This document shows, piece by piece, positions 15,615 through 20,254 of a stretch of DNA of 64,000 bases (positions within the stretch are counted from its first letter, which is position 1; every line of letters starts with the position of its first letter). This DNA comes from Ruminococcus sp. (GTDB taxonomy: Bacteria; Bacillota; Clostridia; Oscillospirales; Ruminococcaceae), in NCBI GenBank assembly GCA_017470905.1, contig JAFUXL010000007.1:186001-250000 (forward strand), read 5' to 3'. The notes below the pieces were generated by a model, which was given only the letters and a program-made list of their open reading frames with translations, made no database searches and was not told where the DNA came from. The translations under genes were made by a program, and so were the position numbers.

Positions 15615-18245
15615 TTATTTTATAATTTCAGAAACGATATTTTCAAAAGCATTAACAGCCTCGTCAGCCTTTGAGACATCGCCCATACCTGCCATTGCAC
15701 TGTCTGGCTTTCCGCCTCCCTTGCCTCCTGTAACTGCGGCAGCCTCACGTACAAGCTTTCCTGCATTTGCGCCCATTTCAACGGCAGCCTTTGAGCATAC
15801 GCAGTAGAGAGTGCCTTTTGCGCCGTTTATTCCTGCGAAGAGGGCGATAATCGGTTCGGACTTATCCTTTACGCTGTCGCCAAGCTTTCGGAGTTCGTCG
15901 GGGGTCGAATTGCCAAGATTTGCCTTTATGACACTTATTCCGTTGATATTTGTGCTGTTCTTGAATATGCCGGCAATTTTGGAATTGGCAATCTGCTGAT
16001 TGAGTGCTTCAAGCTTTTTGTCCTTTTCCTTGAGTTCGGCATTGACTGCGGCGCATTTTTCGGGCAGTTCGTTTATATTTGCAAGCCTGAGAGCCTTTGC
16101 GGAATTTATCACGGTATTTTTGAAACTGTCAAGAAGTACGAGAACACCTGCACCCGTAACGGCTTCTATACGTCTCACGCCTGCGGCAACGGAGCTTTCG
16201 GAAACGATTTTGAAAAGTCCAAGCTGTGATGTATTTGAAACATGAGTACCGCCGCAAAATTCTATTGAAGAACCTGCCGTAACAACTCTTACCGTATCGC
16301 CGTATTTTTCGCCGAAGAGAGCCATTGCGCCGAGCTTTCTTGCCTCGTCAATGGGCATTTCCTGCATGGTTACGGGAATATTGTTCATAATTTCCTCGTT
16401 GACGATATGTTCAACCTCTGAAATTTCATCATTTGTCATTGCCGAAAAATGATTGAAGTCGAAACGGCAGGATTTGTTGTTTACAAGCTGACCTGCCTGA
16501 TGAACGTGGTCGCCGAGTACTCTGCGAAGAGCGTTCTGGAGGAGGTGTGCGGCAGTATGATTTCTCATAATATCCCAGCGTCTTGCGGAATTTATTTCTG
16601 CCGTTACCTTATCGCCCTTTGAGAGCGAACCCTCCGTTATTGAGGCAATATGCAGGAAATGACCCTCCGATTTAACGGTATCGGCAACATTTGCAAAATT
16701 CTGAGCCGTGGAAATAGTACCCGTATCGCCGGCCTGACCGCCGCTTTCTGCATAGAAAGGAGTTTTGTTGAGAACGATAACCACATCATCGCCCTCAACG
16801 GCGGTATTTATTTCCTGACCGTCCTTGTAAATTGCGAGGATTTCGGCATTTTCCGCAGTCATGTCGGTATAGCCCGTGAATACGGTTTTCGGGGCGTCAA
16901 TCTTGATACTGTTGTCAGCCCATGAAGAGCCTGCTTTGGCGAGGTGGTCGGCTTTGGCCTTGTTTCTTTGTTCAAGGGCAAGCTCCTTAAATCTTTCAAC
17001 ATCAACCGAAATCCCCTTTTCCTCACATATCTCGATAGTCAAATCTATCGGGAAACCGTAGGTATCGGAAAGCTTGAATGCATCATCGCCCGAAAGGGTT
17101 TTTCCGTTTTCGGAGCTGAGATTATCAATGAACTGCGATAAAAGCTCCGTACCCTTGTCGATGGTTTTAGCGAAAGCCTCTTCCTCAACACCGATAATTT
17201 TCTTTATGTATTCTCTCTTTTCGGCAAGCTCAGGGTATGCTCCTGCGTTTTCGTTTATGACGGTATCACAGACTTCGCAGAGGAAAGGCTTTGTTATGCC
17301 GAGCAGTCTGCCGTGACGTGCGGCACGGCGCAGAAGTCGTCTGAGGACATAGCCACGGCCCTCGTTGGAGGGCATTATGCCGTCACCGACCATGAAGGTG
17401 GTGCTTCTTATGTGGTCTGTAATTACACGGAGAGAAACGTCCTTTTTAGCGTCTGTTTTATATTCAACACCTGCGAATTTTGAGATATGCTTCATTATAT
17501 TCTGCACGGTGTCCACTTCAAAGATATTGTCAACGCCCTGCATTACACAGGCAAGTCTTTCAAGACCCATGCCCGTGTCGATATTTTTGCTTTTCATTTC
17601 GGCATAGCTGCCGTTTCCGTCACTGTCAAACTGACTGAAAACTAGGTTCCATATTTCGATAACACGGTCGCAGTCGCTTGCCTGTTCAAAATTCTCGAAA
17701 GCCCCGTAAGCCTCTCCTCTGTCGAAATGGATTTCTGAACAAGGACCGCAGGGACCAGAACCGTGTTCCCAGAAATTATCCTTTTTGCCCAGTCTTATAA
17801 TTCTGTCATGGGGGATACCGATTTTATTCTCCCATATCTGTTCAGCCTCGTCGTCGCTCTCATAAATGGTAATCCAGAGGCGGTCGGCAGGGATTTCGAG
17901 CGTTTTGGTGAGAAATTCCCAAGCCCATTCTATGGCTTCATTCTTGAAATAGTCGCCGAAAGAGAAATTTCCGAGCATCTCGAAATAAGTACCGTGACGG
18001 GCAGTTTTTCCGACACTTTCAATATCGGGTGTGCGTATGCATTTCTGACAGGTAGTCACTCTCACATTGGGGGGTACAGCCTGTCCGAGAAAATATTTTT
18101 TTAGCGGAGCCATTCCCGAATTAATCAGGAGCAGGCTTTTGTCGCCCTGCGGAACGAGAGATGCGCTTGCCATGCGGGTATGGTTTTTGCTCTCGAAGAA
18201 CGAAAGATATTTTTCACGAAGATCATTAAGACCTGTCCATTTCAT
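15615..18245 (-). CDS. alaS: alanyl-tRNA synthetase
   Basis: Class II aminoacyl-tRNA synthetase that charges tRNA-Ala and edits mischarged Ser/Gly. The 876-residue length is full. The N-terminal aminoacylation core begins MKWTGLNDLREKYLSFF. The editing domain has HTAAH and CGGTH zinc/editing motifs. The C-terminal oligomerization region ends with the Gly-rich GGKGGGKPDSAMAG segment. The ATG at 18245 has an AAGGAG ribosome site; an in-frame ATG upstream would run into the last tRNA gene. The gene begins only 30 nt after the CCA end of that tRNA gene. It is therefore probably transcribed from the tRNA promoter at 18733-18761 and released by tRNA processing. No T-box leader is seen, although alaS in Firmicutes often has one. 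Confidence 0.97.
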   Translation of the reverse strand: MKWTGLNDLREKYLSFFESKNHTRMASASLVPQGDKSLLLINSGMAPLKKYFLGQAVPPNVRVTTCQKCIRTPDIESVGKTARHGTYFEMLGNFSFGDYFKNEAIEWAWEFLTKTLEIPADRLWITIYESDDEAEQIWENKIGIPHDRIIRLGKKDNFWEHGSGPCGPCSEIHFDRGEAYGAFENFEQASDCDRVIEIWNLVFSQFDSDGNGSYAEMKSKNIDTGMGLERLACVMQGVDNIFEVDTVQNIMKHISKFAGVEYKTDAKKDVSLRVITDHIRSTTFMVGDGIMPSNEGRGYVLRRLLRRAARHGRLLGITKPFLCEVCDTVINENAGAYPELAEKREYIKKIIGVEEEAFAKTIDKGTELLSQFIDNLSSENGKTLSGDDAFKLSDTYGFPIDLTIEICEEKGISVDVERFKELALEQRNKAKADHLAKAGSSWADNSIKIDAPKTVFTGYTDMTAENAEILAIYKDGQEINTAVEGDDVVIVLNKTPFYAESGGQAGDTGTISTAQNFANVADTVKSEGHFLHIASITEGSLSKGDKVTAEINSARRWDIMRNHTAAHLLQNALRRVLGDHVHQAGQLVNNKSCRFDFNHFSAMTNDEISEVEHIVNEEIMNNIPVTMQEMPIDEARKLGAMALFGEKYGDTVRVVTAGSSIEFCGGTHVSNTSQLGLFKIVSESSVAAGVRRIEAVTGAGVLVLLDSFKNTVINSAKALRLANINELPEKCAAVNAELKEKDKKLEALNQQIANSKIAGIFKNSTNINGISVIKANLGNSTPDELRKLGDSVKDKSEPIIALFAGINGAKGTLYCVCSKAAVEMGANAGKLVREAAAVTGGKGGGKPDSAMAGMGDVSKADEAVNAFENIVSEIIK

Positions 18246-18275: not shown

Positions 18276-18396
18276 TGGAGTACCGTTCAGGAATCGAACC
18301 TGATTACTCAATGCCCCTGCGGAGGCTGCTGTTACTGTCTCATACAAGACAGAATTATCCGACTGCATTGCGCTTTATCCAATAAGCTAACGGTAC
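18276..18396 (-). tRNA. interrupted tRNA gene with encoded CCA, isotype not resolved
   Basis: The acceptor stem GTACCGT/ACGGTAC, discriminator T and encoded CCA are intact. So are the D-arm (GCTT/AAGC with GGATA loop) and the T-arm (TCAGG-TTCGATT-CCTGA). A CAATG/CATTG pair sits where the anticodon stem belongs, but 52 nt lie between its arms instead of 7. That interval contains the shared insert module (18326-18352) and CGGA and TCCG words that can pair. T15 and A48 form a Levitt-type pair. The GGATA D-loop recalls tRNA-Arg and a CCG triplet is present. However, no excision that leaves the stem intact gives a normal loop with U33, so the anticodon is unassigned. Confidence 0.65.
18326..18352 (-). 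repeat. tRNA insert module, copy 3 of 3
   Basis: A 27-nt block identical to the one at 18576-18602. On the minus strand the hairpin CTGTCT-TGTATG-AGACAG is followed by TAACAGCAG. Confidence 0.9.
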
Positions 18397-18403
18397 AGAG
18401 AGG

Positions 18404-18520
18404 TGCGCTGTGCGGGAGTCGAACCCGCTTTTCAGAAACCCGATTGGAGGAGAAATTGCTGTTGCTGTCTTACGCAAGACAGCATTATTCCCCTGCGTTT
18501 TACCAATAAACTAACAGCGC
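18404..18520 (-). tRNA. interrupted tRNA gene, isotype not resolved
   Basis: The acceptor stem GCGCTGT/ACAGCGC, discriminator A, D-arm (GTTT/AAAC with TTGGTA loop) and T-arm (GCGGG-TTCGACT-CCCGC) are canonical, and T15/A48 covary as in the neighbouring gene. The 117-nt length exceeds a normal tRNA by about 45 nt because of the insert module at 18456-18482. One excision, after CAGG and before AATCGGG, would give a stem CAGGA/TTCTG and loop ATCGGGT with anticodon CGG and G37. The D-arm instead resembles Gly or Trp tRNAs. CCA is not encoded. The isotype remains open. Confidence 0.6.
18456..18482 (-). repeat. tRNA insert module, copy 2 of 3
   Basis: Matches the other two copies at 22 of 27 positions. 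The hairpin stem CTGTCT/AGACAG is unchanged, while most differences fall in its loop (TGCGTA instead of TGTATG) and just outside. Confidence 0.85.
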
Positions 18521-18570
18521 ATAGTGTGCCGTGCAGGAGTCGAACCTGCGACCTGTCACTTAAAAGGTGA

Positions 18571-18609
18571 GGTATCTGCTGTTACTGTCTCATACAAGAC
18601 AGGATTTTA
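18571..18609 (-). other. 39-nt insertion in the anticodon stem of tRNA-Lys
   Basis: Lies between positions 27 and 28 of the tRNA. It carries the shared module at 18576-18602, with the hairpin CTGTCT-TGTATG-AGACAG at 18585-18602. It is far too short for a group I or group II intron core, and no protein is encoded. Confidence 0.75.
18576..18602 (-). repeat. tRNA insert module, copy 1 of 3
   Basis: A 27-nt block identical to the module in the last tRNA gene of the tandem and 22/27 identical to that in the middle one. Confidence 0.9.
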
Positions 18610-18641
18610 CTGCTCTACCAACTGAGCTAACGGCACATAAA

Positions 18642-18673
18642 CAAAAAAGCCTTTTCCGCATGGGACGAAGGCT
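18642..18673 (-). terminator. intrinsic terminator between promoter and first tRNA gene (possible attenuator)
   Basis: The stem AGCCTT/AAGGCT with an inner TCC/GGA is followed by six T residues on the minus strand, ending 6 nt before tRNA-Lys. An upstream AGCCCTTTT at about 18686-18695 can pair with the 3' arm (AAAAGGCT) instead, so a terminator/antiterminator switch is possible. No T-box or known riboswitch consensus is recognised in the ~85-nt leader. Confidence 0.75.
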
Positions 18674-18732
18674 CTTGTAGAAACAGAAAAAGGGCTGTCA
18701 ATCAGTCAATCCCGTCATCACTGTACAGTAAT

Positions 18733-18761
18733 ATTATAACCTATTATGACGGGAATGTCAA
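18733..18761 (-). promoter_or_regulatory. promoter of the tRNA-alaS unit
   Basis: Perfect TTGACA (18756-18761) and TATAAT (18733-18738) boxes on the minus strand with a 17-nt spacer. Transcription would start near 18726, giving a leader of about 85-90 nt before tRNA-Lys. Confidence 0.88.
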
Positions 18762-18945: not shown

Positions 18946-20169
18946 TTACCACCATCCGCCTTGCGAGAAGTGGTTCTGATAGCCGTCTCCGTAGAAGTAG
19001 AAATAGCCCTCGCTGAATGATGACGGGTCGCTGAAATAGAGATTTACAGCGTCAATAACGTCCTGACTTACATCGCTTGTAAAATATCCGAGGTAAGCGT
19101 AGCTTTCTGCGCCTGTAAACTGGTTCTGCTGTGTAAGTACCTCAATAACGGAATTGGGGAAGAGCGAACTGTACACACGGTTCATAATTACCTCAACAAC
19201 GTTCGCCTTGTCACGGGTGCTTATCCAATTGCAGCCTGCTTCATGGGCAACGGCATTGCAGAGTGCGATGTATTCGCTGTCCGTGAGGGGGATAACAGGA
19301 TTTGACTGTGTTTCCTGCCTGTTTTCTTCGGGCTGTGTGGTTTCGGGTTCCGCAGGCTCTGCCACATACTGAGTGGTAACGGTGGGAGTATCCTCATACT
19401 CTGTTGAAGAAACGGTGGTTTCTTCGGGTTCTGTGACTTCCTCGGTTTCGGGTTCTGAGGGTTCTTCCGCAGCAGACTCTGTAATTTCTTCGGTTTCGGG
19501 TTCTGTAGTCTCCTCTTCAGTCTCTTCCGTAACCGGTTCTGTTACCTCTTCTGTTGTTTCGGGTTCTGTTACCTCTTCTGTTGTTTCGGGTTCTGTTACC
19601 TCTTCCGTTTCGGGTTCTGTAACCTCTTCGATGGTAAACTCAAAGACTTCACGGTTATCTTCTTCCCCGGTTTCGCTTTCGGCTGACTTTTCGGTATTTA
19701 TATAACTGAAAGCCTCCCTGTAGTCTTCCGCAGGAACGGGCTGTGTTTCGGCGAACTCAACCGCAGGGGTTTCGCCCCTGTACTGCGAATATATATTCAC
19801 AGACGACTCCTGAGGAGCGGCAACGAAAACAGGCTCTTCGTATGAAGCAGGCTGTATATTCGTCACAGCGAATTTATATTCCCCCGTATTTTTTTGTTCG
19901 GAGGGGGTTTCTGTCTTTTCGATGTTCTCCACATTATATCCGCCGTCATAAGCGAGCTGAACTGCGGCGGTATCTGTTTTTTTCTCTTTTTCGTTTGAAT
20001 CAGTGATTTCAGTGTTTTCAAGGGATACGGGGCAGTCTTTCACTGCACTGACTTCTCTTGATGCAGCTACGCCGACAGTGGGGGATACAACATAACCTGC
20101 GAGCAGGACACCTGCCATGCAAGTTGTAAGGCTGCCGAAAATCATTGCTGCTGCTTTGGCTTTTCTCAT
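18946..20169 (-). CDS. secreted/anchored SleB-like cell wall hydrolase with acidic TE-rich linker
   Basis: A 407-residue protein. An N-terminal signal/anchor segment (about 8-30) is followed by about 250 residues of low-complexity Thr/Glu/Pro sequence, including tandem TEEVTEPET-type units around residues 190-250. The C-terminal 125 residues match the cell wall hydrolase SleB domain, with the catalytic-Glu region AVAHEAGC and the FTGAESY segment. Such domains cut peptidoglycan glycan strands. The ATG at 20169 has an AAAGGA ribosome site, and an upstream in-frame start is rejected because it reaches the promoter. It is monocistronic with a promoter at 20226-20254. The long acidic linker suggests spanning of the cell wall. 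Confidence 0.82.
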   Translation of the reverse strand: MRKAKAAAMIFGSLTTCMAGVLLAGYVVSPTVGVAASREVSAVKDCPVSLENTEITDSNEKEKKTDTAAVQLAYDGGYNVENIEKTETPSEQKNTGEYKFAVTNIQPASYEEPVFVAAPQESSVNIYSQYRGETPAVEFAETQPVPAEDYREAFSYINTEKSAESETGEEDNREVFEFTIEEVTEPETEEVTEPETTEEVTEPETTEEVTEPVTEETEEETTEPETEEITESAAEEPSEPETEEVTEPEETTVSSTEYEDTPTVTTQYVAEPAEPETTQPEENRQETQSNPVIPLTDSEYIALCNAVAHEAGCNWISTRDKANVVEVIMNRVYSSLFPNSVIEVLTQQNQFTGAESYAYLGYFTSDVSQDVIDAVNLYFSDPSSFSEGYFYFYGDGYQNHFSQGGWW

Positions 20170-20225
20170 TAACTCAATCCTTTCATAAAGAGCGTACAAA
20201 TTTTTGTTCCATCGGAACTGAGTTA

Positions 20226-20254
20226 ATGATAACATATTTGGACGAAAATGGCAA
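20226..20254 (-). promoter_or_regulatory. promoter for the SleB-like gene
   Basis: TTGCCA (20249-20254) and TATCAT (20226-20231) on the minus strand with a 17-nt spacer, about 50 nt upstream of the start. The rest of the gap up to 20655 is AT-rich with short TAATATATTATTAA-type palindromes and no recognisable gene. Confidence 0.65.

Follow-up and report, generated by a model that had tools for sequence, protein, structure and literature searches.

Three tRNA-like elements (TLEs), A, B and C, encoded side by side in a 64,000-nt stretch of a Ruminococcus genome (contig JAFUXL010000007.1, positions 186,001 to 250,000; hereafter the window), quite likely give rise to tRNA-mimicking small RNAs that would dock onto a Ro60-like protein of the DUF2828 family and would be circularly permuted relatives of bacterial Y RNAs. 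This reading is based on the ordinary tRNA order of the elements, in which a Y-like module takes the position of the anticodon arm, on arrays next to DUF2828 genes that carry this module in open order, and on the Ro60 fold of a DUF2828 model. The elements are thus probably protein-docking tRNA mimics rather than intron-bearing tRNAs. All three lie on the minus strand of the window (G000:C4:186001-250000 of genome G000; 2.04 Mb, 73.75% complete), immediately 5' of the alanyl-tRNA synthetase gene alaS and downstream of a promoter-like site. They were scored with the Rfam tRNA model (cut-off 29 bits), which did not list C among its matches at cut-off, and with R1, a covariance model trained on seven elements from four genomes, among them A, B and C:

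18636-18525, minus strand, 112 nt: TLE A; Rfam tRNA 48.5 bits, R1 112.2 bits
18520-18404, minus strand, 117 nt: TLE B; Rfam tRNA 47.7 bits, R1 106.1 bits
18396-18279, minus strand, 118 nt: body of TLE C, followed by an encoded CCA at 18278-18276; R1 96.2 bits, the model being partly built from C itself
18577..18602, minus strand: permuted Y-like module of A, CTGTCTT-G(TAT)-GAGACAG-TA-ACAGCA
18457..18482, minus strand: permuted Y-like module of B, CTGTCTT-G(CGT)-AAGACAG-CA-ACAGCA
18327..18352, minus strand: permuted Y-like module of C, CTGTCTT-G(TAT)-GAGACAG-TA-ACAGCA

The original prediction, made from this DNA alone, had described three tandem tRNA bodies sharing one hairpin module, and the sequence, Rfam (for A and B) and R1 all bore this out. 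Direct reading also agreed with it that A and C carry identical copies of the 27-nt module, to which B matches at 22 of 27 positions, and that the 15/48 pair is G-C in A and T-A in the other two. The arms of a TLE follow each other as acceptor, D arm, Y hairpin and T arm, with the acceptor ends free, and the module runs CTGTCTT-G(TAT)-AAGACAG-TA-ACAGCA, i.e. the partner strand and its G come first, followed by the 5' strand, two bases and ACAGCA; the G of the partner strand opens the tetraloop of the hairpin. ARAGORN reported zero tRNAs in the window and the triplets differ among relatives, so that the kept anticodon arm and constant anticodon of a decoding tRNA were not found. The degenerate module pattern CTGTCTTRYRTRAGACAGNAACAGC, allowing no mismatch, occurs in G000 solely at A, B and C. 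A search of related genomes for the module, which the original prediction had suggested, thus came out negative for the strict pattern (absent from all 59 other genomes searched) and positive for diverged relatives of the elements, which do exist in the genus.

Among 30 distinct elements, the acceptor, D, hairpin and T stems were paired in 97.7% of cells, a percentage biased towards structure because the alignment was fitted to R1, and the acceptor pairs were 100% paired in all rows. The compensatory signal comprised 20 of 23 pairs changed on both sides, a level reached by 0 of 500 shuffles, and slid controls were 33.7-49.6% paired. This covariation is stronger support than folding alone, for which the z values relative to shuffles were -2.87 (A), -3.72 (B) and -2.62 (C). 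In 29 of 31 matches the hairpin has at most one mispair and leads into NN plus ACAGCA or a word close to it; beyond position 73, CC was present in 22 and CCA in 11 of the 31. In tandem TLEs, the acceptors were Watson-Crick paired at 133/133 positions within units versus 56/77 across neighbours, and it is the tRNA register that pairs best.

The initial sign of relatives consisted of similar elements 5' of alaS in some genomes of the genus. At E <= 1e-10, R1 gave 32 matches in 20 of 125 genus genomes (one in 11 of them, two in seven, three in G000 and four in G084); the next-best matches had ordinary tRNA length, the top one scoring 48.2 bits. When 295 genomes of the order were searched at the same threshold, one of 148 genera matched, namely that of the window. 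The gene alaS was named by eye from its protein sequence, and 31 of 34 other genomes had matches to it. The TLEs are located 5' of alaS in 17 of the 20 TLE genomes, G000 included, and 5' of DUF2828 in the remaining three (G060, G106 and G123). The downstream open reading frame (ORF) at two of these non-alaS loci, L083 and L088, matched DUF2828 and DUF7788 in Pfam, and that of L084 was assigned to DUF2828 through a match to PF11443; a regular-expression match to alaS in L088 sits in a different ORF. On viral contigs, a narrow module pattern gave 0 matches. G106 carries three tRNA-like elements with unlike bodies and module stems (L106, 4372-4613 and 6547-6665) and a DUF2828 gene on the same contig. 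A third R1 match in G106 scored 60.2 bits and was missed by the stricter E <= 1e-10 filter, and two further elements of G106 keep the same arrangement with very different stem letters and other tRNA bodies. These unlike elements hint at multiple origins of TLEs or at far divergence.

DUF2828 was detected in 52 of 100 genus genomes, 51 of them above cut-off and G000 among them, and its relatives occur in 671 of 50,697 phage records. Upstream of DUF2828 genes, ACAGCA was counted 144 times in 30 loci (24,654 nt, including L109, which contributes 4 nt), compared to 10.5 on average when these letters were rearranged; the second commonest word, CAGCAA, overlaps it. Most ACAGCA words come after a 7-nt strand and two bases, and for 105 of the 144 words a pairing strand with a G behind it lies within 140 nt, versus 77 of 2,834 random positions. 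In 80 named DUF2828 loci, modules were present in 79 (267 sense, 0 antisense, 2 downstream), the sole module-free locus, L190, having just 132 nt upstream. The array RNA, as read from the sequence, is thus of the type AAGGCAC-TT-ACAGCA ... GTGCCTT-G, its two ends forming the stem. The permuted order was matched at two places in the 80 named loci and at none in the phage loci scanned. T-arm-bearing, YrlA-like elements of the DUF2828 arrays had no clear relation to TLEs. In the 100 genus genomes scanned for both, DUF2828 was found in 16 of 19 genomes with a TLE of 53 bits or more and in 35 of 81 others (one-sided Fisher p 0.0011, kinship not removed). We also observed that rtcB precedes a DUF2828 array in R. 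flavefaciens FD-1 (L175, 3231-4472 and 840-3096), where one of the divergent upstream ORFs has a WCX domain and may encode a regulator of the system, and that an HDV-ribozyme-like sequence (L107, 2811-2884; 41.4 bits, cut-off 50) lies shortly past the DUF2828 gene of G106.

In the structural model, the DUF2828 protein is predicted to have a HEAT ring and a vWA domain, as Ro60 has, and in an hhalign comparison with one TROVE protein the vWA half alone was aligned (prob 87.2). The TROVE family itself (PF05731) was considered as partner of the TLEs and rejected, as it was found in 1 of 100 genus genomes, which was not G000. This sole TROVE gene (G110; L102, 1-450) has, by eye, three copies of GGTTACTTC upstream, a motif that differs from ACAGCA, and L102 also contains a YrlA-like match that, at 39.7 bits, falls short of the 69-bit cut-off.

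Several observations weigh against the docking reading. The DUF2828 proteins did not match TROVE in Pfam, matching DUF2828 and DUF7788 instead, and a DUF2828 profile retrieved no Ro60 from the PDB sequences. The ACAGCA module was absent from the three TROVE loci scanned and therefore does not mark Ro60 in general; nor was it found on a scan of KVP40, which has DUF2828. The TLEs and the DUF2828 gene of G000 sit on different contigs, a search of this genome (73.75% complete) gave no rtcB, and the TLE genomes G017 (82% complete), G035 (88%) and G116 (75%) gave no DUF2828 match. As regards the RNA, the minimum-energy folds of B and C lack the tRNA shape, the element of L083 folds barely better than its own shuffles (z -1.42), and counts derived from R1 favour the hairpin because R1 contains it. 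In tandem TLEs, the Y stems were Watson-Crick paired at 126/133 positions within units and at 66/77 across neighbours, a weaker contrast than that of the acceptors.

The gene and leader elements surrounding the TLEs are:

15615..18245, minus strand: alaS, with a likely start ATG at 18245 after AAGGAG
18733..18761, minus strand: promoter-like site 5' of the leader, TTGACA-17 nt-TATAAT, read from the sequence
18641..18677, minus strand: terminator-like remnant of an alaS T-box leader, AGCCTTCGTCCCAT followed by a T run

The start listed for the alaS ORF, 18368, falls within element C. The remnant has words identical to the T-box leaders of relatives in the genus, and a T-box search at the window leader gave no match at E<=5. 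The T-box word GGGTGGTACCACG was present in 14 of the 17 alaS loci bearing TLEs; G000, G084 and G025 have no such word and retain only the terminator part AGCCTTCGTCCC. In these three genomes the promoter and terminator words (in G000 at window 18641-18761) persist though the alaS T-box is gone. Further upstream, at 18946-20235, an ORF has, by eye, a long Glu/Thr-rich repeat (TEPETEEVTEPE...) preceding an apparent cell-wall hydrolase domain.

The proposal of the original prediction that the inserts are mini-introns, spliced from tRNA precursors to leave working tRNAs, now appears very unlikely. A does resemble a tRNA-Lys(UUU) with an insert, and some TLEs have, by eye, an anticodon-like short stem and 7-nt loop after the module, but the module is a conserved motif common to the RNAs beside DUF2828, and the triplets vary among relatives (UUU, CAU), the loop CTTTTAA of A being replaced by CTCATAA in an element of G084 and by TTCATAC in one of G025. 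In addition, intact tRNAs are encoded elsewhere in G000, comprising Lys(UUU), which the prediction had recommended looking for, Lys(CUU), Pro (tgg, cgg, ggg) and Arg (acg, tct, cct, ccg), and no U33 loop was found by eye in C, as had been noticed before. The earlier exclusion of group I and II introns held, as Rfam listed tRNA alone in the window at its cut-offs. The other earlier suggestion, a tRNA-embedded regulatory element, came nearer: the insert most likely turns the RNA into a tRNA mimic that docks onto a protein. Regulation in cis, by which the TLEs would act on alaS in replacement of or in addition to the T-box, e.g. as sensors or AlaRS-binding tRNA mimics, would fit their position 5' of alaS in 17 of 20 TLE genomes and the loss, in G000, G084 and G025, of the T-box word that the other 14 keep. 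We nevertheless judge it improbable: in three genomes the TLEs precede DUF2828, the common motif points to a Ro-like protein, and G3-U70, the identity pair of AlaRS, occurs in 1 of 31 matches (L087).

Two further explanations concern the units themselves. The real RNA could be YrlA-like and combine the 3' half of one tandem element with the 5' half of the element after it, the TLE being a by-product of the wrong register. The Rfam YrlA model (RF02553, cut-off 69 bits) does align at full length over the A-B junction with 27.7 bits, and the Y stems pair across neighbours as given above. The best score of the model, 30.5 bits, over element junctions, lies below the cut-off. We give this reading very little credence, as a single TLE is present in 11 of 20 genomes at E <= 1e-10, the acceptors pair fully only within units, and RF02553 matches 248 of 398 genomes of the phylum and 6 of 14 control genomes, none above cut-off, with 26 of 30 examined phylum loci straddling two ordinary tRNAs. 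Because the model matches so widely, the junction match was not used as evidence of membership, and the arm order of the model alone was used. Finally, decaying tRNA genes struck by a small palindromic mobile element would account for an identical kind of insert in three adjacent genes; however, the module pattern is found nowhere else in the genome, paired changes occur in the acceptor, D, T and module stems, and acceptors are fully paired in 30 of 30 distinct copies, which makes this explanation extremely unlikely.

If the TLEs are docking RNAs, tRNA enzymes would excise them from the alaS leader, the DUF2828 ring would bind the Y module, and the tRNA body might act as a tether or gate. Judging from their position, transcription behind the alaS T-box could couple TLE output to alanine supply in those species where the T-box persists; in G000 such a link cannot run through a T-box, since the T-box was lost there. 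A possible but rather speculative origin is that tandem YrlA-like copies shifted their processing register, turning a closed-head Y RNA into a tRNA body whose 3' end is free and which bears a hairpin for Ro60-like docking. Behind the alaS T-box, such an RNA would be made as uncharged tRNA-Ala rises and would load Ro60-like rings under alanine shortage.

Should the docking reading hold, the RNA partners of a Ro60-like protein would exist in two circularly permuted forms, one of which hides in tRNA-looking genes skipped by a tRNA finder, and in Ruminococcus Ro-type RNA handling would be tied to the operon of a tRNA synthetase, also in the cultured strain R. flavefaciens FD-1, which has two TLEs. 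The 7-bp stem, NN-ACAGCA and G provide a testable short motif for partners of DUF2828. Among the matches listed for Y RNA, YrlA and TROVE, no description of such RNAs was found in titles and abstract openings; the papers found on DUF2828, judged by title, had plant subjects throughout, and none was found on alaS and T-box together with tRNA-like or Ruminococcus. Y RNAs of the open DUF2828 type may have been published already.

Among known systems, tRNA-Other of the Bacillus cereus group is likewise tRNA-like and associated with the operon of an aminoacyl-tRNA synthetase; we know of no Y module in it. The Salmonella rsr-yrlBA-rtcBA operon (PMC7790460) resembles the DUF2828 system in the Ro60 fold, the RNA partners and the RtcB neighbour, whereas Ro60/Rsr, unlike DUF2828, belongs to the Pfam TROVE family and the scanned TROVE loci are without the ACAGCA module. 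With YrlA, the TLEs share a Ro-type binding stem as well as acceptor, D and T arms, the tRNA-like domain of bacterial Y RNAs; in YrlA, according to PMC8394870, the stem is formed from the RNA's own 5' and 3' ends and joined to the tRNA-like domain, whereas in TLEs a tetraloop closes the stem into an internal hairpin, which thus departs from the end-made Ro-binding stem. The arm order of RF02553 is T arm, acceptor and D arm. Because the parts of the TLE module are reordered, the outer ends of the Y stem are closed and its inner side enters the tRNA body. The open Y-like RNAs beside DUF2828 in phages and Clostridia share the 7-bp stem, NN-ACAGCA and the G after the 3' strand with the TLEs and differ from them by their open order. 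One of them, in a Bacillus phage (locus L259, 2104-2226), was not listed by the Rfam YrlA model at E <= 0.05; it folds on the YrlA plan, with a Y stem, a T arm and an acceptor-like hairpin that has a four-base loop, and, on the order of its sequence parts, the TLE is a circular permutation of this plan.
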